Shown here piece after piece: positions 5,001-27,340 of a stretch of 64,000 nt of DNA. How positions within the stretch are numbered: the stretch's first letter is position 1; each line of letters begins with the position of its first letter. The notes below the pieces were generated by a model. The model was not told where the DNA came from. It saw nothing but the letters and a program-made list of their open reading frames with translations, and made no database searches. This DNA comes from Streptomyces physcomitrii. Lineage in GTDB: Bacteria > Actinomycetota > Actinomycetes > Streptomycetales > Streptomycetaceae. The stretch lies in the NCBI RefSeq assembly GCF_012273655.1, contig NZ_JAAWWP010000013.1:1-64000 (forward strand), read 5' to 3'. Both the position numbers and the translations under genes were made by a program.

Positions 5001-7332
5001 CGCCGAGCACGGCCGTGCGGATGGACTCGACCTGGGGCCCGTGGGAGGCGTAGTCCACGTTGACCAGGCGGGCGCGGACGCCGTCCGCCTCGCAGGCGGC
5101 GCGGAGTTCGGCCAGGGCCTCGGGCTCGCCGGAGACCACGGTGGAGGAGGGGCCGTTGACCGCGGCCAGCGAGATGCGCGCGCCGAAGGCGGTGAGCCGG
5201 GCGCGTACCGCCTCGGCCGGTTCGGCGACGGACATCATGCCGCCCTTGCCCGCGAGCGCGAGCAGGGCCTTGGCGCGCAGCGCGGAGACCTTGGCGCCGT
5301 CCTCCAGGGAGAGGGCGCCGGCGACCACGGCCGCGGCGATCTCGCCCTGGGAGTGGCCGACGACCGCGTCGGGCTCGACCCCGCAGGCGCGCCACAGGGC
5401 GGCGAGGGAGACCATCACGGCCCACAGCACGGGCTGGACGACGTCGACCCGGTCGAAGCCGGGCGCGCCCTCGGCACCGCGCAGCACCTCGAGCAGGCGC
5501 CAGTCGGCGTAGGGGGCGAGCGCCTTGTCGCACTCGGCCATCCGGGCGGCGAACGCCGGTGAGCTGTCGAGGAGTTCGACGGCCATGCCCGGCCACTGGG
5601 AGCCCTGGCCGGGGAAGACGAAGGTGGTCTTGCCCTCGATGTCGGCGAGGCCCTCGACGAGGTGGGCGGCGCTCTGCCCGTCGGCGAGGCGCCGCAGGGT
5701 GTCGAGGTGCTCGCCGCTGGCCGCGCCGAGCGAGACCGCGCGGTACGGGAGCGGGGAGCGGGTGGTGGCGAGGCCGAGCCCGAGGGCGGCCGCCGTGGTC
5801 TCGGGGTGGGCGGTGCCATGGGCGTGGACGCGGGCGGCCTGGCCGCGGACGGCCTCGGTGCTGTGCCCGGCGAGCGGCCAGGCCACCGCGGTGTCCGCGG
5901 CGAAGGGCGGCAGCGCGGGCGCCTCGGGCGCGGGCCGCCGCTCGTCGGCCTCGGCGGCCTGTTCGAGGATGAGGTGGGCATTGGTGCCGCTGATGCCGAA
6001 GGCGGAGACGGCGGCGCGCCGGGGCCGGTCGAGGGCGGGCCAGTCCTGGTTGTCGGTGAGGAGTTCCACCGCGCCCGCGGACCAGTCGACGTGCGGGGTG
6101 GGCGCGTCGATGTGCAGGGTCTTGGGCAGCACGCCCTTGCGCAGGGCCATGGTCATCTTGATGACGCCCGCGATACCGGCCGCCGCCGCGGTGTGCCCGA
6201 TGTTGGTCTTCAGGGAGCCGAGCCACAGCGGCTGCTCCGCCGGGCGCTCCTTGCCGTAGGTGGCGAGGACGGCCTGCGCCTCGATGGGGTCGCCGAGGGT
6301 GGTGCCGGTGCCGTGCGCCTCGACCACGTCGACGTCGCGGGGCCGCAGCCGCGCGTGCGCGAGGGCCTGGCGGATGACGCGCTGCTGGGAGGGGCCGTTG
6401 GGGGCGGCGAGGCCGTTGGAGGCGCCGTCCTGGTTGGTGGCCGAGCCGCGGACCACCGCGAGCACCCGGTGGCCGTTGCGGCGGGCGTCGGAGAGGCGTT
6501 CCAGGACGAGGACGCCGACGCCCTCGCCCCAGCCGGTGCCGTCCGCGCACTGGGCGAAGGCCTTGCAGCGGCCGTCCTCGGAGAGCCCGCGCTGGCGGCT
6601 GAACTCGACGAACAGTCCGGGGACGGACATCACGCTGACGCCGCCCGCGAGCGCCATCGAGCACTCGCCCGCGCGCAGCGCCTGGCAGGCCCAGTGCAGG
6701 GCGACCAGGGAGGAGGAGCAGGCCGTGTCGACGGTGACCGCCGGGCCCTCGAATCCGTAGTGGTAGGACAGCCGCCCGGAGACCACGCTGCCGGAGGTGC
6801 CGGTCAGGGAGTAGCCCTCGGCGCCCTGCTGGGTGTGGCCGCCGACGATGTAGGCCGGGGTCGCGGCGCCCACGTAGACGCCGGTCTGGCTGCCCTTGAG
6901 GGAGAGCGGGTCCAGGCCCGCGCGCTCCAGGGCCTCCCAGGAGGTCTCCATCAGGATCCGCTGCTGCGGGTCCATGGCGAGGGCCTCGCGCGGGGAGATC
7001 CCGAAGAGGCCGGGGTCGAAGTCGGTGGCGTCGTGGAGGAAGCCGCCGGAGCGGGTGTAGGCGGTGCCCGGGTTGTCCGGGTCCGGGTGGTAGAGCCGCT
7101 CCAGGTCCCAGCCGCGGTCGTCGGGGAAGCCGGAGATGGCGTCCCGGCCCTCGGAGACCAGCTCCCACAGGTCCTCGGGCGAGCGCACCCCGCCGGGGTA
7201 GCGGCAGGCCATGCCGACCAGGGCGATGGGCTCGCCGGTGCGGTTCTCGGCCTCGGTGAGGCGCTGCCGGGTGTCGTGCAGTTCGGCGGCAACCCGCTTG
7301 AGGGACTCGACAAGCTTGTCCTCGTTCGCCAT
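1..7332 (-). CDS. Modular type I polyketide synthase, modules 3 and 4 (3' end outside window)
   Basis: Second PKS of the assembly line; 2,444 codons lie in the window and the gene continues past the left edge. The ATG at 7332 follows an AAGGA ribosome site 9 bases upstream. The N-terminus (about residues 1-33) is a charged coiled coil typical of actinomycete PKS docking domains, which fits the tail of the PKS encoded 32 bp upstream. Module 3 is KS (Cys205), AT (Ser661, YASH at 761-764, methylmalonyl type), DH (His969), KR (Tyr1546) and ACP (Ser1716). Module 4 begins with KS (Cys1948) and an AT with GHSIGE (Ser2392), a malonyl-type motif, and is cut there. No thioesterase is visible, so chain release is encoded further left. 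The last ~420 bases have different codon usage from the rest. Confidence 0.96.
2016..7332 (-). other. PKS module 3: KS-AT(methylmalonyl)-DH-KR-ACP
   Basis: AT has GHSQGE (Ser661) and YASH (761-764), the methylmalonyl signature. DH has His969 in HxxxGxxxxP. No ER lies between DH and KR. KR has LDD and Tyr1546; ACP Ser1716 is in LGFDSL. Expected product: a 2-methyl-2-enoyl intermediate. Confidence 0.93.
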
Positions 7333-7364: not shown

Positions 7365-10300
7365 TCAGGAGAGCCCGAGTTCGTTCTGGATGAAGTCGAG
7401 TACCTCGTCCGCGGAGGCGGATTCGAGCCGCTCGGCGGCGCCTGCCTCGCTCCCCGGTACGGGCTCCTCGGCGGGTGCGGCGGCCTTCCACCGCTGGAGC
7501 AGCTCCTCCAGGCGGGCGGTGACCTCCTGGTGCTCCCCGTCGGCGGGGTCGGCGCCGAGGACGGCGTTCTCGAACCGCTGGAGTTCGCCGAGGAGGTCGG
7601 CCGGGGTGTCCGGGGCGGCCGCCGGCACCAGTTCGCCGAGCAGATGACCGGCGAGGGTGACGGTGGTCGGATAGTCGAAGATGAGCGTCGGAGGCAGCCG
7701 CAGGCCGGTGGCCGCGCCGAGCCGGTTGCGGAACTCGACGGCGGTCAGCGAGTCGAAGCCCAGCTCCTTGAAGGTGCGGTCGGCGCCGATCGCGGCGGGC
7801 GCGCCGTGCCCGAGGACAGCGGCGACATCGGCGCGCACCAACTCCAGGAGCAGGTGCTCGCGTTCGCCCTCCGGCAGCGCCGCGAGCCGCTCGGCGAGCG
7901 GGATCTCGGTCGCGCCCGCGGCGGCGGCCGAGACCGTCCGCCGTACCGTCGTACGCACCAACCCCCGGAAGACACCGGGGAGTTCGCCGGTACGTCCGCG
8001 GGCCCTGAGGGCGGCGAGGTCGAGCGGTACGGGCGCGAGCAGCGCCTCGTCCCCGGCCACCGCGGCGTCGAAGAGCCGCAGGCCCTCCGCGTCGGACATC
8101 GGCAGGAAGCCGGAGCGGCCGAGCCGAGCGAGGTCGGCGGAGCCGAGCCCCGCGGTCATCTCGCTGGACTGGGCCCAGTGGCCCCAGGCGAGCGAGACGC
8201 CCGGCAGCCCCTGGGCGCGGCGGTGCGCGGCGAGGGCGTCCAGGAAGGTGTTGCCCGCCGCGTAGTTGGACTGCCCGGCGTTGCCGAGGACTCCGGCGGC
8301 CGAGGAGTAGAGGACGAAGGCGGTCAGGTCCAGGTCGCGGGTCAGCTCGTGCAGATGCCAGGCGGCGTCGGCCTTCGGGCGCAGGACGCGGGAGAGGCGT
8401 TCGGGGCTCTGGGCGGCGAGGATTCCGTCGTCGAGGACTCCTGCGGTGTGGACGACCGCACGCAGCGGGCGCGCCGCGTCGATCCCGTCGAGCAGCTTCG
8501 CCAACTGCCCGCGGTCGCCCGCGTCGCAGGCCACCACTTCGGCCTGCGCACCCAACTCGCACAGTTCCGCCACGAGTTCGGCCGCACCCGGCGCCTCAGG
8601 ACCACGACGCGCCGCCAGCACCAGATGCCGCACACCGTGCTCGGCCACCAGGTGCCGGGCCACCAGCGCACCCAACGTGCCCGTACCACCGGTCACAAGC
8701 ACCGTCCCCGACGGATCCCAGACCTGCGGAACCGTCAGCACGATCTTGCCCACATGCCGCGCCTGCGACATGAACCGGAACGCCTCACCCGCACGACGGA
8801 TGTCCCACGACCGCACCGGCAGCGGCTTCAGCACCCCCGCCTCGAACAACCGCGCAAGCTCCGCCAGCATCTCCCCGATACGGTCCGGACCGGCCTCCAT
8901 CAAATCGAAGGCCTGGTAGCGGACGCCCGGGTAGTCGCGGGCGACCTGCTCGGGCTCGCGGATGTCGGTCTTGCCCATCTCGACGAAGCGTCCGCCGCGC
9001 GGCAGCAACCGCATGGAGGCGTCCACCAGTTCACCGGCCAGGCAGTCCAGGACCACGTCCATGCCCGCGCCGCCGGTGGCGGTGCGGAAGCGCTCCTCGA
9101 AGGTGCTGGAGCGGGAGGATCCGTAGTGCGCGCCGCCGAAGCCCATCAGGTCGCGCAGGGTGTCCCACTTGCCCTCGCTGGCGGTGCCGAAGACCTCTGC
9201 GCCCAGGTGGCGGGCCAGCTGTACCGCGGCCATGCCGACGCCGCCCGCCGCCGCGTGGATCAACACGCGTTCCTCCGCGCCGAGTTCGGCGAGGTCGACC
9301 AGTGCGTAGTAGGCGGTGAGGAAGACCGCGGGTACCGAGGCGGCCTGCTCGAAGGACCAGCCGCCCGGCATCGGGGCGAGCATCCGGGCGTCGGCGACGG
9401 CGAGTTGGCCGAAGGAGTGCGGGATCATGCCCATCACCCGGTCGCCCACGGCGAGTCGGCTCACCCCGGGGCCGGTCTCGGTGACCACACCGGCGGCCTC
9501 GCTGCCGAGCACGATCTTGTCCGGGTACATGCCGAGCGCCATCAGGACATCGCGGAAGTTGAGTCCGGTGGCCCGTACCGAGACGCGGACCTCGCCCGCG
9601 GCGAGCGGCCGCAGGGCCTCCTCGTGCGGCACCAGGGACAGGCTCTCCAGGGTGCCGCCGCCGGTGGTGTCCAGGCGCCAACTCGGGGCGTCCGCGGGCG
9701 GGGTGAGGAGTTCGCCGCTGCCGCCGCGGGCCAGCCTCGGGGTGAGGAAGCGGCCCTCGCGGACCGCGATCTGGTCCTCCCCGGTGGCGACCGCCGCGAG
9801 CACGGACAGGTCCTCGGCGGTGTTCTCGGTGCTTTCGGCGGCGCCCGCCACGCTCAGGTCGGTGTCGACCAGGACGAAGCGGCCCGGGTTCTCGGTCTGC
9901 GCGCTGCGCACCAGACCCCAGAGCGCGGCGTGCGTCAAGTCGCCGACGTCCTCGCCGTGTCGGGCGGCGACGGCACCGTGGGTCAGGACGACGAGCTTGG
10001 TGCCTTCGAGGAGTTCCTCGGCGAGCCAGGCCTGGAGGACGGCGAGCAGGCGCGCGCTCTCGGAGTGGACCGCCTCGGCGGTGACGCCGTTCTGCGCGCG
10101 GGGCACCGGCAGCAGTACGGCCGCGGGGGCGCCGGCCTCGCCGCGGGCCGCCGCGAGGAGTTCCGCCACATCGGCGTAGACGGGCGAGCCGTCGGTGCGG
10201 TGCGCGGCGGGCAGCCGCTCGCCGAGTACCGCCCAGTCGCGCTCGGGCTCGTGGTCGGCCGTGACCTGCGTCCAGTCGAGGCGGAAGAGGCCCTCCTGCG

Positions 10301-13300
10301 CGGGAGCGGCCCCCAACTGCCCGGCGGGCACCGGCAGCAGGGTCAGCGAGTCGATCTCGGCGACCGGCAGTCCGGCGGTGTCGGTGAGCGTGACCGAGAC
10401 ACTGCCCTCGGCGGCGCCGCTCATCCGCACCCGCAGGGCGCTCGCGCCCTCGGCGTACAGGCTGACCCCGCTCCAGGCGAAGGGCAGCTTCACCTCCCCC
10501 GCGCCGGACTCGGCGAGGCCGAGCAGCACGGGGTGCAGGGCGGCGTCGAGCAGCGCGGGGTGCAGCCCGAACTCGGCCGCCTCCTCCTGCTGTTCGGGGG
10601 CGAGGGCCACCTCCGCGCAGAGCTCTTCGCCGTCCCGCCAGGCCGCCTTCAGGCCCTGGAAGGCGGGGCCGTAGCCGTAGCCGGAGTCGGCGAGCCGCTC
10701 GTAGAAGCCGTCCAGCGGGACCGCCTCGGCGCCCGCGGGCGGCCAGGCGGCGGGCTCGGCGGCCGGGGCCGGGGCCGGGGCCTGCGGGGCGAGGGTGCCG
10801 CTGGCGTGCCGGGTCCAGGTGCCCTGCCCGTTCTCGGGGCGGGCGTGGATCTCGACACTGCGGGTGTCGGCCTCCTCCCCCTCGGGCCCTGTGCCGACCA
10901 CGACCTGGAGCTGTACGGCGCCCTGCGCGGGCAGCACCAGCGGTGCCTCCAGGGTGAGTTCGGCCAGGCGGCCGAGGCCGGCCTCCTCCCCCGCGCGCAG
11001 CGCGAGGCCGACGAAGGCGGTGCCCGGCAGGAGCACGCTGCCGCCGACCGCGTGGTCGACGAGCCAGGGCCGGGTCCCCGCCGAGACGCGGCCGGTGAGC
11101 ACCAGGCCCTGGCCGTCCGCGAGGTGCACGGCGGCGCCGAGCAGCGGGTGCCCGGCGGCGGCCAGCCCCAGTCCGGCGGCGTCCGAGGCCCCGGCGACCG
11201 GCGCCAGCCAGTACCGCTCGTGCTGGAAGGCGTACGTCGGCAGGCTGACCCCGATGCTCTGCTCCGGCCCGTAGCGGGCGGACCAGTCGATGTCCACGCC
11301 GCGGGTCCAGGCCTGGGCGAGGGCGTCGAGGAAGGCCTCCGGCTCCGGGCGGTCCTTGCGCAGGACGGGCAGCAGCAGGGTCTCGGGGTCCGTCAGGGTC
11401 TCCTGCGCCATCGCGGTGAGCACACCGTCGGGGCCCAGCTCGACGAAGCGGGTCACGCCGCGGGAGGCGAGGAAGCCGATGCCATCGGCGAAGCGGACCG
11501 CGCGGCGCACATGCTCCACCCAGTACGCCGCGTCGAAGGCGGTGACCTGTTCACCCGTCAGATTCGAGACCACGGGCACCGAGGGCTCCTGGTACGTCAA
11601 CTCCTCGGCCACCCGCCGGAACGCGTCCAGCATGGGTTCCATCAGCGGGGAGTGGAAGGCGTGCGAGACGCGCAGCCGCCGGGTCTTGCGGCCCGCCTCG
11701 GCGAGGCGTCCGGCGATCTCCTCGACCGCCGCCTCCTCACCGGAGAGGACCACGGACTCGGGGCCGTTGACCGCGGCCACGTCCACCCGGCCGGTGAACT
11801 CCGCGAGATGCACGCGTACTTCGTCCTCGGTGGCGCGCACCGAGACCATCGCGCCGCCCTCGGGCAGCGCCTCCATCAGCTGCCCGCGCGCGGCGACCAG
11901 ACGGCAGGCGTCCGGCAGCGGGAGCACGCCCGCGACATGGGCGGCGGCCAGCTCACCGATGGAGTGCCCGGCCACGAAGTCGGGCCGTACGCCCAGGGAT
12001 TCGACCAGGCGGAAGAGCGCGACCTCGATGGCGAAGAGGGCGGGCTGGGTGGTGCCGGTGCGGTCGAGTTCCTCCTGCCGGGCGGTGAAGATCCGCTCCC
12101 GCAGGTCCTCGCCGAAGGCGGCGCAGACCTCGTCGAAGGCGGCGGCGAACACCGGCTCGGCGGCGTACAGTTCGCGGCCCATCCCGGCACGCTGGGCGCC
12201 CTGGCCGGAGAAGAGGAAGGCCAGCCGCCCCTGGGTCGCGGGGAGTTGGCCCTGCCGCAGGCCCGGCGCCTCCTCACCGGCGGCGAGCGCGCGCAGCGCG
12301 GCGAGCTGGCCCGCCGGCGAGTCGGCGGTGACCACGGCGCGGTGCTCCAGGGCGGAGCGCCGGTGCACCAGCGCCGAGGCGGTGGCGGACAGACCGGGGC
12401 CCGTGTCCGCCCAGTCGGCGAGCCGCCCGGCCTGGCCGCGCAGGGCGCGCTCGCCGCGGGCGGAGAGCGGCCAGGCGACGAGCCCGGCCTCGGTTCCGGA
12501 CCCGGTTCCGGCGGCGGGGGTCTCGGCGGCGGGGGCCGCCGGGGCCTCTTCGAGGACCACATGGGCGTTGGTGCCGCTGATGCCGAAGGAGGAGACGGCG
12601 GAGCGGCGCGGGCGGCCGGTCTCGGGCCAGTCGACGCCCTCGTCCAGGAGCCGCACGGCGCCGGACTCCCAGTCGACCTCGGGGGTGGGCACCTCGGCGT
12701 GCAGGGTGCGCGGGAGCTTCCCGTGCCGCATGGCCTGCACCATCTTGATGACCCCGGCGACACCGGCGGCGGCCTGGGCGTGGCCGATGTTCGACTTCAG
12801 CGAGCCGAGCCACAGCGGGGACTTCCCCGCGCGCTCCTTGCCGTAGGTGGCGAGCAGGGCCCCCGCCTCGATGGGGTCGCCGAGGGTGGTGCCGGTGCCG
12901 TGCGCCTCCACCGCGTCGACCTCGTCCGCGCCGAGGCGGGCGTTGGCGAGGGCCTGCCGGATGACGCGCTGCTGGGCCGGGCCGTTGGGCGCGGTGAGGC
13001 CGTTGGAGGCGCCGTCCTGGTTGGTGGCCGAGCCGCGCAGCACGGCGAGGACCTGGTGGCCGTTGCGGCGGGCGTCGGAGAGGCGTTCGAGCAGGACCAG
13101 GCCGACGCCCTCCGCCCAGCCGGTGCCGTCCGCGTCGGCGGCGAAGGACTTGCAGCGCCCGTCGGCGGCCATGCCCCGCTGGCGGCTGAACTCGACGAAC
13201 ACCCCGGGGGTCGCCATCACGGCGACGCCCCCGGCGAGCGCCATCTGGCACTCGCCCTGCCGCAGCGACTGCGCGGCCAGGTGCATGGCGACCAGCGAGG

Positions 13301-16300
13301 AGGAGCAGGCGGTGTCCACGGTGACCGCGGGGCCCTGGAGTCCGAAGGCGTAGGAGACGCGGCCGGAGACCACGCTGCCCTGGGTGCCGGTGAGGCCGTA
13401 GCCCTCCACCCGCTGGGCGTTCTCCTCCACCCGGAAGGCGTAGTCGTGGTGCATGGCGCCCGCGAAGACACCGGTGCGGCTGCCGCGTACGGCGTCCAGA
13501 CCGAGCCCGGCGCGCTCGAAGAGCTCCCAGGAGGTCTCCAGGAGGAGCCGCTGCTGCGGGTCCATCGCCAGCGCCTCGCGCGGGGAGATCCCGAACAGCT
13601 CGGGGTCGAAGTCCCCGGCTTGGTACAGGAATCCGCCCTCGCGGGCATAGCTGGTGCCGAGCTTCTCGGGGTCCTGGTCGAAGAGGGTGTCCAGGTCCCA
13701 GCCGCGGTCGGTGGGGAAGCCGGAGACGGCGTCCCGGCCCTCGGCGACCAGCTCCCACAGGTCCTCGGGCGAGGCGACGCCGCCCGGGTAGCGGCAGGCC
13801 ATGGCGACGATCGCGATCGGCTCGCCGGTGCCGCCCTGCACCGGGGTGTCCGGCAGCTCGGCGGGCGCCGCGGCCTCGGCGCCGAGGAGTTCGCCGCGCA
13901 GGAAGCGGGCGGCCGCGGTCAGCGTGGGGTGGTCGAAGATCAGGGTGGCGGGCAGCCGGATGCCGGTGGCGGCGCCGAGCTGGTTGCGCAGCTCGACCGC
14001 GGTGAGCGAGTCGAAGCCGAGCGCCTTGAAGGCCCGGTCCGCGCTGATCGCCGCGGGGTCGCCGTGGCCGAGCACGGCGGCCACCGACTCCCGTACCAGA
14101 TCGGTGAGTTCGCGCTCCTGCTCGGCCTCGCCGAGGGCGGCGAGGCGCCGGACCAGGGCGGAGGACCCGTCCTCGGCGGCGCCCGTCTCGACGGTGCGCC
14201 GGGCCGGAACCCGCACCAGCCGGCGGAAGAGTCCGGGCAGCAGTCCGGAGGCGGCGCGCCCGCGCAGGGTCGCCATGTTCAGGCTGACCGGTACGAGGAG
14301 GGCCTCGCCGGGGGTGCGCAGGGCGGCGTCGAGGAGGGCGAGCCCGTGGTCGGAGGCGAGCGGCTGGATGCCGGCCCGGCTCATCCAGCCGAGGTCGCCG
14401 TCCTCCAGGTGGGCGAGGAGACCGCTGGCCTCCTGCCACAGGCCCCAGGCCAGCGAGGAGGCGGGCAGCCCCTCGGCGTGGCGGCGGTGGGCGAGCGCGT
14501 CCATGAAGGCGTTGGCGGCGGCGTAGTTGGACTGGCCGGGGTTGCCGAAGACGCCCGCGATGGAGGAGAAGAGCACGAAGGCGGTCAGGTCGAGGTCGCG
14601 GGTCAGCTCGTGCAGATGCCAGGCGGCGTCGGTCTTGGGCCGCAGCACCGCGTCGAGGCGCTGCGCGCTCAGCGCGCCGACCATGCCGTCGTCGAGCACG
14701 CCGGCCGCGTGGAAGACACCGGTGAGCGGGTGGGCCTCGGGGATCCGGTCGAGCAGCGCGGCCAGTTCCGCGCGGTCAGCGGCGTCGCAGGCGACCACCT
14801 CGGCCTCGGCGCCCAGGGCGGCGAGCGAGTCGGCCAGGGCGGCGGCGCCGGGCGCCCCGGGTCCGCGGCGGCCCGTCAACAGGAGCCTGCGGACGCCGTG
14901 TTCGGTGACCAGGTGGTGGGCGAGGAGGGCGCCGAGGGTGCCGGTGCCGCCGGTGATCAGGACGGTGCCCTCGGGGTTCCAGCGCGGGCGGGCGGCGGGC
15001 TGCCCGGCGCTGCGGGACAGCCGCGGCACCAGCAGCGCCTTGTCGCGCACCGCGAGCTGGGACTCGCCGGTGGCCAGCGCGGCGGGCAGATCGCCGCCGC
15101 TGCTGTCCCAGGGGTCGCGGTCGAGGAGGAGGAAGCGGTCCGGGTTCTCGGACTGGGCGGAGCGCAGCAGTCCCCACAGCGGCGCGTGCACCAGGTCGGT
15201 GACGTCCTCCCCGGCGCGTACGGCCATGGCCCCGCGGGTGACGACCGCCAGCCGGGACCCGGCGAACCGGTCCTCGGCCAGCCACTCCTGTACGAGGGCC
15301 AGCATCCCGGCGGTGGCCGCGCGGGCGCGCTCGGCGAGCAGGCCCGGGTCCGCGACCTCCTCGGGCTCGCGGGCGACCACCACGACGGGCGGCACGGCCA
15401 TGCCCTCGTCCAGGGCGGCGGTGAGCGCGGCCAGGTCGGGGAAGGCGCTGCCGCCGATCTCGGCCCAGTCGGCGGGCGCGGTACCGCCCGCGGGCACCGG
15501 CGACCACTCGACGCGGTACAGGCCCTCGCGGGCGGCCCCGCCGGTGAACTGCTCGGCGGCGACCGGCCGCAGCACGAGCGAGTCGGCGGAGGCCACCGGG
15601 CGGCCCTCGGTGTCGGTCACCAGGAGGGAGACCGTGTCGGTGCCGAGCGAGGTCATCCGCAGCCGCAGCGCGGCGGCCCCGACGGCGTGCAGGGTCAGCC
15701 CGCTCCATACGAAGGGCAGCCGGACCCCGGCGTCCTCACCGCGTGCGGCGCGCAGCAGCTGCTCGGCGTGCAGCGCGGCGTCCAGAAGCGCGGGGTGCAG
15801 CCCGAACTCCCCTGCCTGCTCCCGCTGTTCGGGGGCGAGCGCCACCTCGGCGAAGATCTCCTCGCCGCTCCCCCAGGCCTTGTGCAGGCCCTGGAAGGCG
15901 GGCCCGTAGCCGTAACCGGCCTCGGCGGTACGGGCGTAGAAGTCGCCGAGGTCCAAGGCCTCGGCCCCGGCGGGCGGCCAGGCCTCCAGTGTCCGGGGAC
16001 CGCTGGTACCGGCGGGCGCGAGGAAGCCCAGGGCGTGTCGCACCCAGCTCTCCTGCGCCTCCTCGTCCTCGGCCCGGGAGTGCACCGAGACCTGGCGGCG
16101 ACCGGAGGCGTCGGCGGGACCGACACCGACCTGGAGCTGCACCCCGGAGTGCTCCGGCAGCAACAGCGGTGCCTCCAGGGTGAGTTCCTCCAGGTGCTCG
16201 CAGCCCGCCTCGTCCCCGGCGCGGACCACCAGCTCCACGAAGGCGGTGCCCGGCAGCAGCACGCTCCCCATGGCGCCGTGGTCGGCGAGCCAGGGGTGCG

Positions 16301-19300
16301 TCTTCAGGGAGACCCGGCCGGTCAGCAGGTACTGGTCGCCCTCGGCGAGGCGTACGGCGGCGCCGAGCAGCGGGTGCCCCGGCGCGCGGAGACCGGCGGA
16401 TCCGACATCGGCCGCGGAGGTCTCGGCCATGTCCAGCCAGTAGCGCTCGCGCTGGAAGGGGTAGGTGGGCAGCACGGGCCCCAGATCACGCACCGGCTCC
16501 GGCAGCACCGCGGTCCAGTCGAGGGCCACACCACGGGTCCAGGCCTCCGCGAAGGAGGTCAACACCCGCCGCAGACCGCCCTCTTGACGCCGCAATGTCC
16601 CCTGCGCGAGCACCTCCACACCCACATCGTCAGAGGTCTCACTGATGCCGTACGTCAGCACCGGATGCGCACTCGACTCCACGAACACATCGAAACCGTC
16701 GGCGATCAGGGCACGTACGACCGGCTCGAAGCTCACCGGGCGACGGCAGTTCTCGAACCAGTACGAAGCATCCAACTCGGCACCCGACAGCACCTCGCCG
16801 TTGACCGTCGAGTAGAGCGGGACGGAGCCCTCGCGCGGCTGCACGAACGACAGCAGGTCCAGGATCCGCTCGCGCAGCGGGTCCACCTGGGCGCAGTGCG
16901 AGGCGACCGTCGAACCGATCACCTTCGCCCGGACACCCTCCGCCTCCAACTCCGCCACCAGCTCCTCCAGAGCGGCGACTTGACCCGCGACCGTCACCGA
17001 ACGCGGACCATTGTTCCCCGCGATCGACAGCAACTCAGCCTCACCGTTGAAGCGAGCGATACGAGCCTCGACCTCAGCGGCAGGCAAGGAAACCGACGCC
17101 ACCGCACCCTTGCCCACCAGCTCATCGGCGAACAACTGCGAACGCAGCACGACCACTTGAGCCGCATCCTCAAGGGACAGAGCACCGGAGACGGCAGCAG
17201 CGGCGATCTCACCCTGGGAGTGGCCGACAACGGCATCCGGGACGACCCCGACCGACTGCCACAGCGCGGCCAGCGACACCATCACCGTGAACAGCACCGG
17301 CTGAAGGATCTCGATGCGGTCGAGCGACGGGGCCTCGTCCGCACCCCGGACGACCGACTCCACCGACCAGTCCACGTACTCCTCGACAGCGCCCGCCACT
17401 TCGGCGAACCGGGCCGCGAACACCGGCGAGGAGTCCAGGAGTTCGACCGCCATCCCCGCCCACTGCGAACCCTGACCCGGGAAGACGAACACCGTCTTGT
17501 TGCGGGGGGCGGCGAGTCCGCGTACCGCCGGGCGGTCCAGGGCGGTGAGGAGTTCGGCGTGGGAGTCGCCGATCGCGGCGGCGCGGTACTCGAAGGCGGT
17601 GCGGGAGGTGGCGAGGGCGGAGGCCAGGGCGAGGGTGTCGGGCTGATCGGCGGCGAAGGCGGCGAGGCGGGCGGACTGCACGCGCAGGCCCTCCTCGCTG
17701 CGGGCGGAGAGCAGCCAGGCCAGCGGCCGGTCCTGCTCCGGAGCCGGGGCGGGGGCCGACTCGGCCTCCGCCGGGGCCTCTTCGAGGATCAGGTGGGCGT
17801 TGGTGCCGCTGATGCCGAAGGAGGAGACACCGGCCCGGCGGGGGCGCTCGCCGCGCGGCCAGGGCGCGGGCGCGTTCAGGAGCTCCACGGCGCCCGCGGA
17901 CCAGTCGATGTGCGGGGAGGGTTCGGCGGCGTGCAGGGTCTGGGGCAGGGTCTCGTTCTGGAGGGCGAGGACCATCTTGATGACGCCGGCGACCCCGGCG
18001 GCCTGCTGGGTGTGGCCGATGTTCGACTTCAGCGAGCCGAGGCGCAGCGGAAGGCTCTCGCCGCGCAGGGTGCCGTAGGTGGCGAGCAGGGCGTGCGCCT
18101 CGATGGGGTCGCCCAGCTTCGTACCGGTGCCGTGCGCCTCGACCGCGTCGACGGAGTCGGCGGTGACGCCCGCGTTGGCCAGGGCCTGGCGGATGACGCG
18201 CTGCTGGGAGGGGCCGTTGGGGGCGGTGAGGCCGTTGGAGGCGCCGTCCTGGTTGGTGGCCGAGCCGCGGATCACGGCGAGGACCTGGTGGCCGTGGCGG
18301 CGGGCGTCGGAGAGCTTCTCCAGGAGCAGGACGCCCGCGCCCTCGGACCAGCCGGTGCCGTCGGCGGAGGCGGCGAAGGACTTGCAGCGGCCGTCGGCGG
18401 ACAGGGCGCGCTGGCGGGTGAGTTCGACGAAGATGCCGGGGGTGGGCATGACGGTGACGCCGCCCGCGAGGGCGAGGGAGCACTCGCCCTGCCGCAGGGA
18501 CTGGGCGGCCAGGTGCAGGGCCACCAGGGAGGCCGAGCAGGCGGTGTCGACGGTGACGGCGGGCCCGGTCAGGCCGAGGGTGTAGGCGATGCGGCCGGAG
18601 GCGACGCTCGGCGTGCTGCCGGTCATCAGATAGCCCTCGGTGGTCTCCGTGCCCTCGTGCAGGCGGGGCCCGTAGTCCTGGAAGGTGGCGCCGACGAAGA
18701 CGCCGGTCTGGGTGCCGCGCAGGGCGGCCGGGTCGATCCCGGCGCGTTCGACGGCCTCCCAGGAGGTCTCCAGGAGGAGCCGCTGCTGCGGGTCCATGGA
18801 GGTGGCCTCGCGCGGGGAGATGCCGAAGAAGGCGGGGTCGAAGCGGGTGGCGCCGCCGAGGAAGCCGCCCTCGCGGACGTAGTGCTTGCCGGGCTGGGTG
18901 CCCTCGGGGTCGTAGAGGCCCTCCAGGTCCCAGCCGCGGTCGGTGGGGAAGGCGCCGATGACGTCGCGGCCCTCGGCGAGCACGCTCCACAGCTGCTCGG
19001 GAGTGTCCACGTCGCCGGGGAAGCGGCAGCTCATGGCGACGATGGCGATGGGCTCGTCGCCGGCCGACACGGTGGGCGCGAGGGCGGTCTCCTCGCCGCC
19101 GCCGAGGGCGAGTTCGCGCAGATACCCGGCGAGCGCCAGCGGGGTCGGGTAGTCGAAGAGCAGGCTGCTCGGCAGGGCGAGGCCGGTGGCGGCGGAGAGC
19201 CCGTCGCGCAGTTCGACGGCGGTCCAGGAGTCGAAGCTCAGCTCGTGGAAGGTGCTGCGCAGGTCGATCTCGTCGGTGGGGTCGAGCCGCAGCACGGTGG

Positions 19301-22148
19301 CGATGTGCTCGCGCAGCAGGCGGTGCAGGCTGCGGTCCTGCTCGGCGGCGGAGAGGGCCCCGAGCCGCTCGCGCAGGGCGGAGCCGGGCCGGTCCTCCTC
19401 GCTCGCCTCCGGGGCGGGGGCGGCGGCCCGGGGCGCGGCCGGGGCGGGACGGGCCGTGCCGGTGGTGTCGATCCAGTGGCCGCGGCGCTGGAAGGCGTAG
19501 GTGGGCAGGGCGATGTGGCCCGGCTCGGCGGGACCGTAGAGCGCGTCCGGGTCCAGGTCGACGCCGACGGTGTGCAGCCGGGCGAGCGCGGTGGTCAGGG
19601 CCTCGGTCTCGGGGGTGCGGGTGCCGCGCTGCACGGGAACGAAGGCCGATTCGGGGTCGGCGCACTCGCGGCCCATCGAGGACAGGGCGCCGTCGGGGCC
19701 GATCTCGACGTAGCGGGTGACCCCGGCGGCCTCCAGGGCGGCGATGCCCTCGGCGAAGCGGACGGCGCCCCTGACGTGGCGCACCCAGTAGTCGGCGGTG
19801 CCGATCTCCTCGTCCGCGACGGGCCGTCCCGTGAGGTTGGAGACGACCGGGAGGGTGGCGGGCCGGTAGGTCAGCTCCTCGGCGACGCTGCGGAACGCGT
19901 CGAGCATTCCGTCCATGTGCGCGGAGTGGAAGGCGTGGCTGACGCGCAGCCGCTTGGTCTTGCGGCCCTGGGCCGCGAAGTGGGCGGCGGCCTCGTCCAC
20001 CGCGGCGGCGTCGCCGGAGACGACGACCGCGCGCGGCCCGTTGACCGCGGCGAGGTCCAGGCGTCCGCCGTGCTGGTCGAGGAGCGGGGCGAGTTCCTCC
20101 TCGGTGGCCTCCAGGGCGGCCATGGCGCCGCCCTCGGGGAGCGCGTCCATGAGCCTGCCGCGGGCCGCGACCAGGCGGGCGGCGTCGGCGAGGCTCAGCA
20201 CCCCGGCGACATGGGCGGCGGCGAGTTCGCCGATGGAGTGCCCGACGAGGAAGTCGGGGCGGGCGCCGAGGTGTTCGAGGAGCCGGTACAGGGCGACCTC
20301 GAAGGCGAACAGGGCGGGCTGGGTGTACGCGGTGCGGTCGAGCAGCGCGGCCTCGGGGCTGTCCGCCGCGGCGAAGGCGATCTCGCGCAGCGGGCGGTCG
20401 AGCAGCGGGTCGAGTGCGGCGCAGACCTCGTCGAAGGCGCGGGCGAACTCCGGTTCCGCGGCGTGCAGTTCGCGGCCCATGCCGGGGCGCTGGCTGCCCT
20501 GGCCGGTGAAGAGGAAGGCGGTGGCCCCGGGCAGGGCGCGGCCCTGGACGAGCTGGGCGCTGCTGTTGCCGTCCGCGAGGGAGCCGAGCCCGGCGAGCAG
20601 CTCGGGCAGCTGGTGGCCGAGGACGACGGCGCGGTCCTTGTGCGCGGTACGGGTGGTGGCGAGCGCGCGGGCGAGGGCGGCCGGCGGGTGGCCGGGCTCG
20701 GCGGCGAGGTGCGCGGCGAGCCGGGCGGCCTGGGCGCGCAGGGCCTTGTCGCCGCGGCCGGAGACGGGGAAGAGGAGGGGGCGGGCCGGGACGGTGGCGG
20801 CCTTCGGCTCGGGGGCGGCGGCCGGGGCGGGGGCCTCGCCGAGGACGACATGGGCGTTGGCGCCGCCGAGGCCGAAGGAGCTGACCCCGGCGATCAGCGG
20901 CTGCTCGGGGGCGGGCCAGGGGCTCCTGCGGTCCTGGACGCGCAGGCCGAGGGCGGGCAGGTCGATGGCCGGGTTGGCGGCGCGGAAGTGCAGGCTCGGG
21001 GGCAGTTCGCGGTGGCGGATCGCGAGGGCGGCCTTGACCAGCCCGGCGATCCCGGCCGCGGCCTCCAGATGGCCGATATTGGTCTTCGCGGAGCCCACGG
21101 CGACCGGGGCCGGCGCGTCGCGTCCCTCGAAGGCGGCGCCGAGGGCGGCGGCCTCGACGGGGTCGCCGACCGGGGTGCCGGTGCCGTGCAGTTCGACGTA
21201 CTGCACCTGGTCGGGGCTCTGGCCCGCGGCGGCCAGGGCGTGCCGTACGACCTCGGTCTGGGCCTCGGCGCTGGGGACGGTCAGTCCGTCGGTGGCGCCG
21301 TCGTGGTTGACGGCGCTGCCGAGGATCACGCAGTGCACGCGGTCGCCGTCGGCGAGGGCGGCGTCCAGCGGCTTGAGGACGACGACGCCGCCGCCCTCGC
21401 CGCGCACGAAGCCGTCGGCCCGCTCGTCGAAGGTGTGGCAGCGGCCGCTCGGGGAGAGCCCGCCGAAGCGGGCGGTGATCTCCGAACTCGCCGGGTCGAT
21501 ACGGAGGTTGACGCCTCCGGCGAGGGCGAGGTCGGCCTCGCCGGAGAGCAGGGCCTGGCAGGCGAGGTGGACGGCGACCAGGGAGGAGGACTGCGCGGTG
21601 TCCACGGTGAGGCTGGGGCCGCGCAGGCCGAGGGTGTAGGAAACGCGGTTGGCGATGACGCCGCGGTTGAGGCCGGTGAAGGTGTGCTGGGTGACGGCGG
21701 GGTCGCCGTGGCGCTTGACGAGGGCCGCGTAGTCGTCCCAGATGGCGCCGACGTAGACGCCGGTGGCGGAGTTCTTCAGGGCGCCGGGGAGGGTGCCCGC
21801 GTCCTCCAGGGCCTCCCAGACGAGTTCGAGGACGAGCCGCTGCTGGGGGTCCATGGCGGCGGCCTCGCGCGGGGAGATCCCGAAGAAGGCGGCGTCGAAG
21901 GCGTCGACGCGGTCCAGGAAGCCGCCGCGCGCGCCCGCGCCTCCGGCGCCCTCGGGCAGGGCCGCGCGGCGCGCCTCGGGCACCTCGGTGACGGCGTCGG
22001 TGCCCTCGCTGAGCAGCCGCCAGTAGGCGCCGGGGCCGTCCGCCTGGGGGAAGCGGCAGGCCATGCCGACGACGGCGACCGGTCCGGTGCTCCGGTCAGG
22101 TGTCCGCGCAGCCCGAGGCGCCTGCCGTGAATTCACCGGGTCAGCCAC
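7365..22148 (-). CDS. Modular type I polyketide synthase: loading module plus modules 1 and 2
   Basis: First PKS of the assembly line, 4,927 residues. The GTG at 22148 has a GAAGGGG ribosome site close upstream. Order: KSQ (Gln186)-AT (Ser638, HAFH at 738)-ACP (Ser974); then KS (Cys1204)-AT (Ser1644, VASH at 1748-1751)-DH (His1957)-KR (Tyr2542)-ACP (Ser2714); then KS (Cys2948)-AT (Ser3396, HAFH at 3496)-DH (His3699)-ER (about 4130-4445)-KR (Tyr4629)-ACP (Ser4800). The Gln in place of the KS cysteine is the hallmark of decarboxylating loading modules, so the expected starter is acetyl from malonyl. The C-terminus ends in a short acidic docking-type helix ([13 protein letters not shown]). All KRs carry the LDD motif (B type). 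Three stretches of distinct codon usage occur across the two PKS genes, two of them in this gene. Confidence 0.97.
7368..13829 (-). other. PKS module 2: KS-AT(malonyl)-DH-ER-KR-ACP
   Basis: Fully reducing module. AT has GHSIGE and HAFH (malonyl). DH has an intact His3699 motif. ER shows [14 protein letters not shown] and the nucleotide-binding [14 protein letters not shown] has Tyr4629 and LDD. ACP Ser4800 sits in LGFDSL. It should add a saturated CH2-CH2 unit. Confidence 0.93.
8525..8905 (-). other. Codon-usage island at the ER-KR junction of module 2
   Basis: From the end of ER into the first third of KR the coding strand turns to GGT, CGT, CTT, TTG and GTG-rich usage, unlike both flanks. 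The nucleotide-binding start of KR lies inside it. This looks like a short gene-conversion tract. Confidence 0.5.
13830..19061 (-). other. PKS module 1: KS-AT(VASH)-DH-KR-ACP
   Basis: KS has DTACSAS. The AT has GHSQGE, as in branched-extender ATs, but VASH where methylmalonyl ATs have YASH and malonyl ATs HAFH. The substrate loop reads [18 protein letters not shown] keeps HxxxGxxxxP (His1957) and [12 protein letters not shown] keeps Ser, Tyr2542 and Asn and has LDD. The product should be a 2-substituted 2-enoyl thioester. The branch could be methyl, ethyl or a larger alkyl group. Confidence 0.9.
16470..17500 (-). other. Codon-usage island covering the AT of module 1
   Basis: On the coding strand this stretch uses many T-ending codons (GCT, GGT, CGT, GTT, CTT, GAT) and TTG, which are nearly absent on either side where GCC, GCG and GGC dominate. 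The island matches the AT catalytic domain from just before its first conserved motif to its C-terminal end. I infer a recombination-borne AT domain. The limits are by eye, good to a few tens of bases. Confidence 0.65.
19062..22148 (-). other. PKS loading module KSQ-AT-ACP
   Basis: The KS active-site motif reads DTAQSSS, with Gln186 where elongating KSs have Cys; the HGTGT and GH motifs are kept. The AT has GHSIGE and HAFH, the malonyl signature. Established for KSQ modules: malonyl-ACP is decarboxylated to acetyl-ACP. The ACP reads LSFDSW around Ser974 rather than the LGFDSL of the other ACPs, a deviation at both flanks of the phosphopantetheine site. Confidence 0.93.
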
Positions 22149-22450: not shown

Positions 22451-23479
22451 ATGACAGGAATAGGAATACTGGGCACCGGGTCGTATCTTCCTGCTGACAG
22501 AGTTTCCAATGCCGTCGTCGCCGAACGGGCCGGGGTCACCGAGGAGTGGATCGCGCGCAAGACCGGTATCCGGGAACGCCGTTACGCCGCCGATTCGGAG
22601 GCGACATCCGACCTCGCGGTGGAGGCGGCCCGGGCCGCGCTCGACTCGGCGGGACTGGACGCCGCCCAGCTGTCCTGGATCCTCCTGGCGACCTCCACCC
22701 CGGACAGCCCGCAGCCGGCCACCGCCTGCCTCGTACAGGACCGCATCGGCGCGGTGAACGCGGCGGCCTTCGACCTCAACTCGGTGTGCAGCGGCTTCGT
22801 CTTCGGCCTCGTCACCGCCGCCCGGCTGCTCGCCGCGCCGGGACCGGACGGCCCGGGATACGGACTGGTCATCGGCGCCGACACCTACTCCCGGATCATC
22901 GACCGCGAGGACCGGCGCACCGCGATCCTCTTCGGCGACGGGGCGGGCGCCGCGGTCCTCGGACCGGTCAGATCCGGCCACGGCCTGATCGGCTCGCAGC
23001 TCTCCACGGTGGGCGGCACCGAGGACCTCATCCGGGTCGAGGCGGGCGGCAGCCGGCTGCCCGCCTCCGAGAAGACCGTCGCCGAGGGCCTGCACCACTT
23101 CCGTATGAACGGCCGCGGGGTGAGCGAATTCGTCGCCGCCGAACTGCCGCCCGCCGTACGGGAGGTCATCGCCTCCGGCGGTCTGCGGAACTCCGACATC
23201 GACCACTTCATTCCGCATCAGGCCAACGGCGTGATGCTCGCGAAGCTCCTGCCCGAACTCGGTCTCGACCGGGCGCGCACCCATCTGACCGTGGAGCGGC
23301 ACGGCAACACCAGCGCCGCTTCCATCGCGATCACCCTCGACGAGGCGCACCGCTCGGGCGCCTTCGGCGACGGGGACGTGCTGCTGCTCACCGGGTTCGG
23401 CGGCGGTATGTCGCTCGGCTCGGCGCTCGTGCGCTGGGACGGTCCGGCCGCCCGCGCCCATCGAAAGGAAACCGTATGA
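22451..23479 (+). CDS. KAS III (FabH-like) ketosynthase, candidate extender-unit enzyme
   Basis: 342 residues, the usual length for 3-oxoacyl-ACP synthase III. The catalytic triad is present: Cys113 in NSVCSGF, His256 in IPHQAN and Asn286 in HGNTSAA. The GFGGG loop near the C-terminus is intact. It should condense an acyl-CoA with malonyl-ACP or malonyl-CoA to a 3-ketoacyl product. Its stop overlaps the next ATG (ATGA at 23476-23479), so the two are translationally coupled, and it faces away from the loading PKS. In known clusters such a KAS III with a 3-hydroxyacyl-CoA dehydrogenase and a carboxylase/reductase makes alkylmalonyl-CoA; that role here is inference. Alternative: an unrelated fatty acid or starter function. 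Confidence 0.9.
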   Translation: MTGIGILGTGSYLPADRVSNAVVAERAGVTEEWIARKTGIRERRYAADSEATSDLAVEAARAALDSAGLDAAQLSWILLATSTPDSPQPATACLVQDRIGAVNAAAFDLNSVCSGFVFGLVTAARLLAAPGPDGPGYGLVIGADTYSRIIDREDRRTAILFGDGAGAAVLGPVRSGHGLIGSQLSTVGGTEDLIRVEAGGSRLPASEKTVAEGLHHFRMNGRGVSEFVAAELPPAVREVIASGGLRNSDIDHFIPHQANGVMLAKLLPELGLDRARTHLTVERHGNTSAASIAITLDEAHRSGAFGDGDVLLLTGFGGGMSLGSALVRWDGPAARAHRKETV

Positions 23480-25194
23480 CGTCCGCACCGCCCGCCTTCG
23501 ACTCCGTCGCGGTCTTCGGACTCGGCACCATCGGCTCCGCCCTGACCGCCTCCCTGCTGCGCACCGGCGCGCGGGTGACCGCCGTGGAGGCCGACGAGGC
23601 CTCGCTCGCCCGGGGCCGGGAGGCGGTGCGGCAGGCCGCCGGTGAGGCGGCGGAGCAGGTCACGTACACCCTGGACCCGGACGCCGTCGCGGGCAGCGGG
23701 CTGGTCATCGAGGCGGTGACCGAGGACCTCGCCCTGAAGGCCGCGGTGCTGCGCCGGGCGGGCGAGGTCTGCGGGCCCGCGACGATCCTCGCGACCACCA
23801 CCGCGCTCTCCGTCACCCAGGTCGCCGCCGAGACCGGGCGCCTGCCGCGGACCATCGGCCTGCACCCGGTGGGGCACGCCCCGGACGGCGGCGTGGTCGA
23901 GGTGGTCGCCACCCCGGTCACCGACCCGGAGGTGCGGGAGCGGACCACGGAGCTGGTCGCCCAACTCGGCCGTACCGCCGTGGACTCCACCGACCTGCCG
24001 GGCTTCACCGGCGGCGGGCTGCTCATGGCCTACCTCGCGGGCGCCGTCGCGATGCTGGAGCGGCGCTACGCCTCCCGCGACGACATCGACGCGGCGATGA
24101 CGCTGGGCTGCGGACTGCCCCTCGGGCCGCTCGCCCACCTCGACCTGATAGGCCTGGACACAGCGCTCGACACCCTGCGCGGGCTGCACCGCCTCACCGG
24201 CGAGCGGCGCTTCCTGCCGCCGCCGCTGCTCACCCACATGGTCACCGCGGGCCTGCTCGGCGTGAAGTCCGGCCGCGGCTTCTACAGTTACCCCGCCGAC
24301 GCGCCTGGCCGGCCGGTGGCCGCGAGCCCCGGGCTCGGCGAACCGCGTCCGGTGCGGCAGGTCGGCATCGTCGGCTCCGGCACCATGGCGCGCGGCATCG
24401 CGGAGGTCTTCGCCCGCAGCGGCTACGCGACGGTGCTCACCGCCCGCTCCGAGGTCAAGGCGAAGGAGGCGGTCGCCGGGGTCGGCCGCTCCCTGGACCG
24501 CGGGGTGAGCCGCGGCAAGCTCTCGGCGGAGGTCGCCGCGACGGCCCTGGACCGGCTGCTGCCCGCCGACGACTTCGGCGCGCTCGGCGACTGCGATCTG
24601 CTGATCGAGGCGGTCGCCGAGGAACTCCCGGTCAAGCGGCAGATCTTCGGCGCCCTGGACAGGGCCAGCCGCCCGGACGCGGTGCTCTCCACCACCACCT
24701 CCAGCCTGCCGGTGGTCGAGTGCGCGATGGCCACCCGGCGGCCCGGCTCGGTGGTCGGCATGCACTTCTTCAACCCGGCGCCGGTGATGAAGCTGGTCGA
24801 GGTGGTCGGCACCGTGCTGACCGCGCCGGACGCGCTGGCCACCGCGCACCGGGTCTGCGCGGACCTCGGCAAGCACCCGGTGGCCTGCGCGGACCGCGCC
24901 GGGTTCATCGTCAACGCCCTCCTCTTCCCGTACCTCAACGACGCGGTGCGGCTCCTGGAGGAGCACCGGGCACCGGCCGAGGACATCGACACGGTGATGG
25001 CGCAGGGCTGCGGCTATCCGCTCGGCCCGCTGGCCCTGCACGACGTCATCGGGCTCGATGTCTCGCTGCAGATCCAGCGCAGCCTGCACGCGGCCTTCCA
25101 CGAGGAGTCGCTCGCCCCGGCGGCGCATCTGGAGCACCTGGTCGGCGCGGGCTACCTGGGCCGCAAGACGGGCCGCGGCTTCCGCAGCCACTGA
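23476..25194 (+). CDS. Tandem 3-hydroxyacyl-CoA dehydrogenase (two fused units)
   Basis: 572 residues made of two copies of the NAD-binding plus C-terminal dehydrogenase unit (about 8-282 and 291-572). A single-unit 3-hydroxybutyryl-CoA dehydrogenase is about 285 residues. The second unit is canonical: GSGTMARG, the catalytic His in GMHFFNPAPVMKLVEVVG, Glu in IEAVAEE and Asn in FIVNALL. The first keeps GLGTIGS, IEAVTED and the His in GLHPVGH, but the FFNP block and the Asn (FTGGGLL) are lost, so it is probably impaired or has a different substrate. It should reduce the 3-ketoacyl product of the coupled KAS III. Dehydratase and carboxylase steps would have to come from elsewhere. Confidence 0.9.
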   Translation: MTSAPPAFDSVAVFGLGTIGSALTASLLRTGARVTAVEADEASLARGREAVRQAAGEAAEQVTYTLDPDAVAGSGLVIEAVTEDLALKAAVLRRAGEVCGPATILATTTALSVTQVAAETGRLPRTIGLHPVGHAPDGGVVEVVATPVTDPEVRERTTELVAQLGRTAVDSTDLPGFTGGGLLMAYLAGAVAMLERRYASRDDIDAAMTLGCGLPLGPLAHLDLIGLDTALDTLRGLHRLTGERRFLPPPLLTHMVTAGLLGVKSGRGFYSYPADAPGRPVAASPGLGEPRPVRQVGIVGSGTMARGIAEVFARSGYATVLTARSEVKAKEAVAGVGRSLDRGVSRGKLSAEVAATALDRLLPADDFGALGDCDLLIEAVAEELPVKRQIFGALDRASRPDAVLSTTTSSLPVVECAMATRRPGSVVGMHFFNPAPVMKLVEVVGTVLTAPDALATAHRVCADLGKHPVACADRAGFIVNALLFPYLNDAVRLLEEHRAPAEDIDTVMAQGCGYPLGPLALHDVIGLDVSLQIQRSLHAAFHEESLAPAAHLEHLVGAGYLGRKTGRGFRSH

Positions 25195-25300: not shown

Positions 25301-25783
25301 TCAACTCCCGGCGCGGCGGGCCCGCCAGCGGTCCATCAGGGTGGCCAGTTCACTCTGCATGAACTCGAAGAAGTCGGCGGTTTCGGCCAGTCTCCGTCCG
25401 GCCTCGGTCTCCGGCCCGAGGACGTCCACGCCCGACTTCAGGGTCGACTCCCAGCGGGAGAGCTCCTTGTCGCGGCCGGTGAAGGCCTCGTACCAGATGT
25501 CGGCGCGGACCCGGTAGCGCTCGCGCCGGGAGCCGGGTTCGCGCTCCCGGCCGACCATGTGGATCTGCGAGAGGTAGCGGACGGCGCCGGAGATCGCGGC
25601 GGGGCTGGCCCGGAGCCGTTCGGCGAGTTCGGCGGAGCTGAGCTGGCCGCTGTCCTCCGCGAGCAGGCAGGCGAAGACGCGGGCGGACATCCTGGGCATG
25701 CCTGCCTCGGTGAGATCGGCGGCGAAGCGCTCGACGAAGTCCGGCACCTCTCCCTCGTAGCGCCGCGGTCGGGTCTCGTCCAC
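25301..25783 (-). CDS. GbsR/MarR-family transcriptional regulator
   Basis: 160 residues. The GTG at 25783 is chosen for its GGGGAG ribosome site 6 bases upstream; the open frame runs much further but has no coding character there. Residues about 10-95 form a winged helix of the GbsR/MarR type: MPRMSARVFACLL, then SSAELAERLRASPAAISGAV as recognition helices and REREPGSRRERYRV as the wing. The C-terminal helices would dimerise. It is convergent with the KAS III operon and sits at the probable right border of the PKS cluster. Two GTTTCnGAAA dyads lie 57-85 bp upstream of its start, suggesting autoregulation. Whether it controls the PKS is unknown. Confidence 0.88.
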   Translation of the reverse strand: MDETRPRRYEGEVPDFVERFAADLTEAGMPRMSARVFACLLAEDSGQLSSAELAERLRASPAAISGAVRYLSQIHMVGREREPGSRRERYRVRADIWYEAFTGRDKELSRWESTLKSGVDVLGPETEAGRRLAETADFFEFMQSELATLMDRWRARRAGS

Positions 25784-26356: not shown

Positions 26357-27340
26357 ATGCACGGCTATACGCACTTGCGTCTCGGACCGCTGGACCAGCT
26401 GCGCGTCTCGGTGACCGCGCACCAGGGCGCCACCCTGCTCTCGCTGCTCGCGGACGCCCTCGGCGGCAGGTCCCAGGGGGTGCCCGAGCGGTGGCGGGCC
26501 CTGGTCAGGCAGGCGGCGCCAGAGGGCTCCGGGGCCGTGCTCGCCCCGCTCTTCGCCCCCGCGTACTCGGTGATCCCGGACAGCATCACCCCCACCGCCT
26601 GCATGCCCGACGGCGATGTGGCCAGCCAGTGCGCCCTGCTCGCCGACCTCTCGCCGGACACCCTGCTCACCGAACTGGAGACGGAGTTCCCGGAGTTCGT
26701 CCCGCCCCAGTGGCAGCCGGTGGTCGAGCGCCCCCGGGAGTGGCTGCGGGCCTACGCGCGGCTGCTCGGCTCGGTCTGGGACCAGTTCCGGCCGGTGTGG
26801 CGGGGTGCCGGCGCCCTGCTGCACCGGGAGACCGAGCGGGTGGGCACCGCCGCGGTGAGCGGCAACCTGGACGTGCTCCTCGGCTCGGTCAGCAGCCGCT
26901 TCCGCTACGGGGAGGGCAGCCTGCGCCTGCCGGACCAGCAGGCCGGCGACTTCAGCCTCGACGGCAGGCGTCTTGTGCTGGTGCCGATCGTCTCGGGCAG
27001 CGGCGCCTCGATGTTCGCCCTGGACCGGCCCGACCTGGTGTGGATCGGCTACCCGATGCCGGGAGTCGGGCGGCTCTGGGAGAACTGCACCGAACCGCAC
27101 GGCGGCACCGACGCGCTCGCGCTCCTGCTCGGCCCCCGCCGCGCGGCCCTGCTGCGCGCCTGCGAGGAGCCGCTGACCATGGGCGAGATCGCCGTCCGGA
27201 TCGGCTGCAGCCCCGCCACCCTCACCTACCACTGCGCCCAGCTGGAACAGGCGGGCCTGCTCCAGCGCGAGCGCCGCGGCCAGCAGGTGCGGCTGTGGCG
27301 CACCGAACGCGGCCACTCGGTACTCGACCTGCTCTCCTGA
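26357..27340 (+). CDS. ArsR-family winged-helix regulator with large N-terminal domain
   Basis: 327 residues. The ATG at 26357 follows a GGAGGAGGA ribosome site; an upstream in-frame ATG lacks one. The C-terminal 75 residues are an ArsR/SmtB winged helix (LTMGEIAVRIGCSPATLTYH, then QLEQAGLLQRERRGQQVRLW). The N-terminal 250 residues match the unknown-function domain seen in many Streptomyces ArsR-like proteins of this length. I see no clustered Cys/His metal site, so metal sensing is doubtful. Target unknown; the gene is convergent with the FUSC-type gene and divergent from the MarR-like gene. Confidence 0.85.
   Translation: MHGYTHLRLGPLDQLRVSVTAHQGATLLSLLADALGGRSQGVPERWRALVRQAAPEGSGAVLAPLFAPAYSVIPDSITPTACMPDGDVASQCALLADLSPDTLLTELETEFPEFVPPQWQPVVERPREWLRAYARLLGSVWDQFRPVWRGAGALLHRETERVGTAAVSGNLDVLLGSVSSRFRYGEGSLRLPDQQAGDFSLDGRRLVLVPIVSGSGASMFALDRPDLVWIGYPMPGVGRLWENCTEPHGGTDALALLLGPRRAALLRACEEPLTMGEIAVRIGCSPATLTYHCAQLEQAGLLQRERRGQQVRLWRTERGHSVLDLLS

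Follow-up and report, generated by a model that had tools for sequence, protein, structure and literature searches.

An NphT7-like KAS III candidate and a tandem 3-hydroxyacyl-CoA dehydrogenase in a salinomycin-type cluster of Streptomyces physcomitrii: a probable SalP/SalQ pair for ethylmalonyl-CoA supply

The KAS III gene and the tandem 3-hydroxyacyl-CoA dehydrogenase (HADH) gene beside a modular polyketide synthase (PKS) in the analysed window, a stretch of 64,000 nucleotides of the S. physcomitrii genome, are almost certainly SalP/SalQ, the helper pair for the four-carbon building block of the veterinary antibiotic salinomycin. Our overall explanation, to which we assign a probability of roughly 0.87, is that this pair provides ethylmalonyl-CoA by way of an NphT7-like KAS III, the HADH, a crotonase and a crotonyl-CoA carboxylase/reductase (CCR) encoded outside the cluster. 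The part played by the pair in extender supply is already known: in salinomycin producers the butyrate extender has been assigned to SalP and SalQ, whose inactivation lowers the yield by 10% and 36% (PMC4602208). Since these knockouts cut salinomycin production only in part, the pair appears to act as a booster, with crotonyl-CoA also coming from other sources. We equate the two genes with SalP/SalQ by cluster type, by their place upstream of the PKS and by their butyrate/ethylmalonyl role, in all of which they resemble the pair of the Streptomyces albus salinomycin cluster (PMC4602208); the two letters are used here for the pair as a whole. What the present analysis adds is the likely CoA-level chemistry of the KAS III and the place of the missing CCR.

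Both genes are complete, and the ATGA overlap described in the initial annotation was confirmed, the four letters at 23476-23479 forming the stop of the KAS III gene and the start of the HADH gene (Table 1). The KAS III (P0001) matches PF08541 with an E-value of 2.5e-29, scores above the cut-off of the NCBIfam beta-ketoacyl-ACP synthase 3 model and has an intact catalytic triad (Cys113/His256/Asn286) in the alignment. The HADH (P0002) carries two 3HCDH_N and two 3HCDH domains. All catalytic motifs are kept in its C-terminal half; in the N-terminal half GLH and VEVV are retained, whereas GFTGGGLL replaces GFIVN and the catalytic Asn is gone, as it is from the same half of all tandem HADH homologues aligned. 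The N-terminal half is thus likely to be non-catalytic, which would leave P0002 with one active site. The pair diverges from the minus-strand PKS, whose frame starts at 22148, about 0.3 kb away. The same PKS/KAS III/HADH layout occurs in Streptomyces bambusae (identities of 76%, 77% and 68%), so that a chance reading frame can be dismissed.

Table 1. Features in and around the KAS III/HADH pair (window coordinates)
Feature	Position	Strand	Remarks
PKS 2 (SalAII-like): module 3, KS-AT(YASH)-DH-KR-ACP, and start of module 4	1..7332	-	
PKS 1 (SalAI-like): loading module and modules 1 and 2	7365..22148	-	
Module 1 AT with VASH ethylmalonyl motif	16527..17492	-	putative consumer, within the window, of the pair's product
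KAS III (P0001), NphT7-like acetoacetyl-CoA synthase candidate	22451..23479	+	342 aa, complete; one of SalP/SalQ
Tandem 3-hydroxyacyl-CoA dehydrogenase (P0002)	23476..25194	+	572 aa; the other of SalP/SalQ
MarR-type regulator adjoining the pair	25301..25783	-	homologous (68% identity) to a gene of the S. bambusae locus; SalO/SalN candidate
Helix-turn-helix regulator	26357..27340	+	possible cluster edge

The pair directly adjoins the gene for the loading module, and it might on that account be thought to make the PKS starter unit. The loading module, however, is composed of a KSQ (DTAQSSS), a malonyl-type AT (HAFH) and an ACP, so that malonyl would be decarboxylated to acetyl, in agreement with the initial annotation, which had argued against a starter role on the grounds of malonyl use. 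In related genomes, moreover, KAS III/HADH genes are coupled with a gene for CCR, an extender enzyme, and a starter-unit function is barely conceivable. Extender supply is the reading that we keep. In PKS 1 the loading module is followed by module 1 (KS-AT(VASH)-DH-KR-ACP) and module 2 (KS-AT(HAFH)-DH-ER-KR-ACP). VASH is the usual motif of ethylmalonyl-specific ATs (PMC10646177, PMC6090053, PMC5082578). In the AT tree the VASH ATs form one group, with three members in this genome and two in the relative G342, and the module 1 AT clusters with the others (SH-aLRT 99). The TAGH-type AT of a second PKS (L148, about 62.9 kb, on contig C22) also groups with the VASH ATs (SH-aLRT 92); the same contig holds one of the CCR genes described below (CCR2).

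Position 1 of the window is the left end of its contig (C5), where the PKS is broken inside the module 4 AT, which opens as the GHSIG malonyl type. Contig C36 and the right end of contig C6 likewise start within an AT, and their 120-bp ends are identical. These ends fit a path C5-C36-C6 through a collapsed repeat, with two breaks in the PKS, the joins being deduced from the contig ends. Along this path the ATs read malonyl (loading), ethylmalonyl, malonyl, methylmalonyl, malonyl, malonyl, malonyl-type, methylmalonyl, methylmalonyl, ethylmalonyl, methylmalonyl, methylmalonyl, methylmalonyl, malonyl and ethylmalonyl, an order that matches that of salinomycin unit by unit. Leaving the loading module aside, the inferred contig order gives extender counts of five for malonyl, six for methylmalonyl and three for ethylmalonyl, where the types of modules 4 and 6 come from partial ATs only; the same numbers are published for salinomycin (PMC9228677). 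The nine PKS subunits along the path contain 2, 2, 2, 1, 2, 1, 1, 2 and 1 modules, exactly as SalAI-AIX do (PMC4602208). Contigs C19 and C27 were rejected as continuations of the PKS: both start inside an AT, but their AT orders differ, and it is C36/C6 that gives the published layout.

At the opposite end of the PKS, the C6 flank encodes a candidate FAD-dependent epoxidase, SnoaL-type proteins, two thioesterases, a P450 with a ferredoxin, an ABC exporter, a LuxR regulator and a condensation/PCP protein; for a methyltransferase-like protein on C6 the PDB search returned no match. One SnoaL-type protein (C6:165542-165928) has 127 of 128 residues in common with PDB 5cxo, the structure entry for SalBIII. 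The SalBIII homologue on C6 has all eight of the residues reported for the SalBIII active site, Tyr14, Asp38, Arg45, Tyr54, Asn58, Ile65, Asp104 and Trp121 (PMC4648038). Judged by these sequence features, the window is part of a salinomycin-type cluster that was divided by the assembly. The S. bambusae locus (L036, L180), in which the PKS/KAS III/HADH layout occurs together with a 77% identical SalBIII homologue, is probably a salinomycin-like cluster in another species.

The identity of the cluster qualifies the proposal of the initial annotation, which is partly supported as a whole. It had proposed a candidate pathway to an unusual extender unit. Extender supply with a CCR encoded elsewhere holds up; the unusual character does not, as the VASH motif and the salinomycin-type cluster point to ethylmalonyl-CoA, the commonest CCR product and hence not an exotic alkylmalonyl-CoA. 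Nor is the pathway a new candidate, since the cluster is already known, and because the rest of the salinomycin cluster is present in the genome, the finding is real but ordinary.

The likely chemistry of the KAS III emerges from its phylogeny and motifs. The initial annotation had named a grouping with housekeeping FabH as one observation that would refute its proposal; in the KAS III tree, P0001 falls in an 11-member clade (support 100/100) apart from the genome's fabD-linked FabH (L002, adjoined by a gene for a fabD-like acyltransferase). The clade contains KAS IIIs of PKS clusters and of mevalonate loci, the latter with genes for HMG-CoA reductase, HMG-CoA synthase and mevalonate diphosphate decarboxylase; P0001 shares about 53-59% identity with the mevalonate-linked homologues. 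The Arg two residues after HQAN, which corresponds to the ACP-docking Arg249 of E. coli FabH, is kept in 55 of the 61 scored homologues and missing from P0001. All six homologues without it fall in the P0001 clade, of which one member (L039) has the Arg. Its loss in P0001 fits the use of malonyl-CoA. P0001 also carries AGGSR, a motif that is not specific by itself, as five FabH-like loci have AGGSR plus the Arg. In NphT7, a mevalonate-cluster enzyme that irreversibly condenses acetyl-CoA and malonyl-CoA to acetoacetyl-CoA, AGGSR was proposed to recognise CoA (PMC5432608). P0001 thus resembles NphT7 of Streptomyces sp. CL190 in belonging to the KAS III family, in having AGGSR and in having clade-mates that adjoin mevalonate operons; unlike NphT7, it lies in a PKS cluster together with an HADH and with no mevalonate operon. 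We conclude that the KAS III is likely an NphT7-like, CoA-dependent acetoacetyl-CoA synthase. Such an enzyme would be of interest for engineering the precursor supply of polyethers and other polyketides that use ethylmalonyl-CoA.

A more mundane account would make the KAS III a FabH duplicate that serves fatty-acid synthesis, with the HADH acting in beta-oxidation and both near the PKS by chance, and the NCBIfam label of the KAS III, beta-ketoacyl-ACP synthase III, agrees with this. Yet P0001 does not fall in the FabH branch and has lost the Arg that follows HQAN, two features on which a housekeeping FabH is rejected, and the PKS/KAS III/HADH neighbourhood is kept in S. bambusae. A search for P0002-like genes at a chosen threshold in 395 genomes of the family gave six positive genomes, this one included, and each of the other five genes belongs to a PKS cluster or adjoins a CCR gene. 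Chance proximity of fatty-acid enzymes is therefore highly improbable, and the extender-supply reading is retained.

The five other genomes show CCR-KAS III-HADH (G155), KAS III-HADH-CCR (G104), CCR-HADH (G134), CCR and HADH (G138), and HADH and KAS III with the CCR across the PKS on its far side (G342). We counted the retention of CCR with KAS III and/or HADH in G155, G134, G104 and G138 in favour of extender supply. The CCRs of these four clusters are 71-78% identical to the housekeeping type. Like G155, G104 and OssC/OssD of ossamycin (PMC6490886), the pair belongs to a setting in which KAS III and CCR are tied to PKS extender supply; unlike the salinomycin-type cluster, which has no CCR, PKS clusters with CCR-KAS III-HADH hold their own. 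The G342 cluster (L125-L126, L134-L135; C4:304683-305876) is polyether-like: two of its ATs carry VASH, and it also encodes a SnoaL-type protein and its own CCR, in a genome with four CCRs. G134 and G155 (L121-L124 with L130-L133) have CCR, HADH and, in G155, KAS III genes adjacent, with an FPSH AT in the PKS. Compared with this window, they are the better candidates for an uncommon extender. The KAS III-HADH-CCR PKS cluster of G104 (L127-L128, L136-L139) has IAGH and IAAH ATs, motifs unusual for malonyl or methylmalonyl.

These relatives, whose genes of the same kind adjoin PKSs with FPSH, IAGH and IAAH motifs, could be taken to mean that the product of the pair is a branched or longer-chain alkylmalonyl-CoA (e.g. 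isobutyl- or butylmalonyl-CoA), as in the divergolide, ansalactam and ossamycin clusters; AT4 of divergolide even carries VASH, yet takes isobutylmalonyl (PMC6490886). We regard this as very unlikely and reject an exotic extender in view of the salinomycin-type cluster and the VASH motif of the module 1 AT. The published extenders of salinomycin are malonyl, methylmalonyl and ethylmalonyl only (PMC9228677), and the KAS III groups with mevalonate-linked candidates for acetoacetyl-CoA synthase. Ethylmalonyl-CoA is accordingly kept as the proposed product.

The final enzyme of such a route was sought throughout the genome. In the window, as the initial annotation had stated, there is no CCR, the sole match of a profile search being a PKS ER domain at 9171-9416; none was found along the C5-C36-C6 path either, in line with the report that ccr sits outside the sal cluster (PMC8601195). 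The annotation had placed the gene left of position 1, elsewhere or among the housekeeping enzymes. A position just to the left can be discarded, as the contig ends there and the PKS runs on in C36/C6, whereas a location elsewhere is borne out: the genome holds two CCRs, 94% identical over 327 aa, both outside the cluster. CCR1 (L027, C5:226148-227131) lies at the right end of C5, after a TetR gene and a gene for a 601-aa HADH (C5:222816-224621) that is 59% identical to P0002 and shares its tandem architecture; unlike P0002, this HADH belongs to a housekeeping locus with TetR and CCR, and its N-terminal half is less degenerate. CCR2 (L028, C22:2-982) lies where C22 begins. The assembly breaks both genes in a stretch that they share, and the two C-terminal pieces occur at the end of C8 (L030) and the start of C21 (L029). 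The C8 piece is followed by genes for a B12 mutase, an HpcH/HpaI-type lyase, a mesaconyl-CoA-hydratase-like MaoC protein and an acyl-CoA dehydrogenase, and belongs to what looks like a housekeeping ethylmalonyl-CoA operon. The order regulator, CCR, mutase in five relatives suggests, without proving, that CCR1 is joined to C8. The whereabouts of the CCR can now be regarded as settled.

The sequence itself shows the genes and their conservation, which cluster they belong to, the motifs of the ATs and where the CCRs lie. In the route that we infer, as regards enzyme activities, direction of flux and choice of CCR, (i) the KAS III would condense acetyl-CoA and malonyl-CoA to acetoacetyl-CoA at the CoA level, as NphT7 does; (ii) the tandem HADH would reduce acetoacetyl-CoA to 3-hydroxybutyryl-CoA; (iii) a housekeeping crotonase, for which the genome offers seventeen crotonase-family matches that could supply the dehydration step, would form crotonyl-CoA; (iv) one or both of the extra-cluster CCRs would carboxylate and reduce crotonyl-CoA to ethylmalonyl-CoA; and (v) the VASH-type ATs of modules 1, 9 and 14 would load ethylmalonyl-CoA and so introduce the polyether's three ethyl branches.

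As a tentative extension, somewhat short of even odds in our judgement, we hypothesise that the KAS IIIs of salinomycin-type and related clusters were recruited from the acetoacetyl-CoA synthases of the mevalonate pathway and use CoA thioesters only. They would thereby provide an irreversible, thiolase-free entry to ethylmalonyl-CoA, the last step of which would be carried out by an extra-cluster CCR present in two 94% identical copies.
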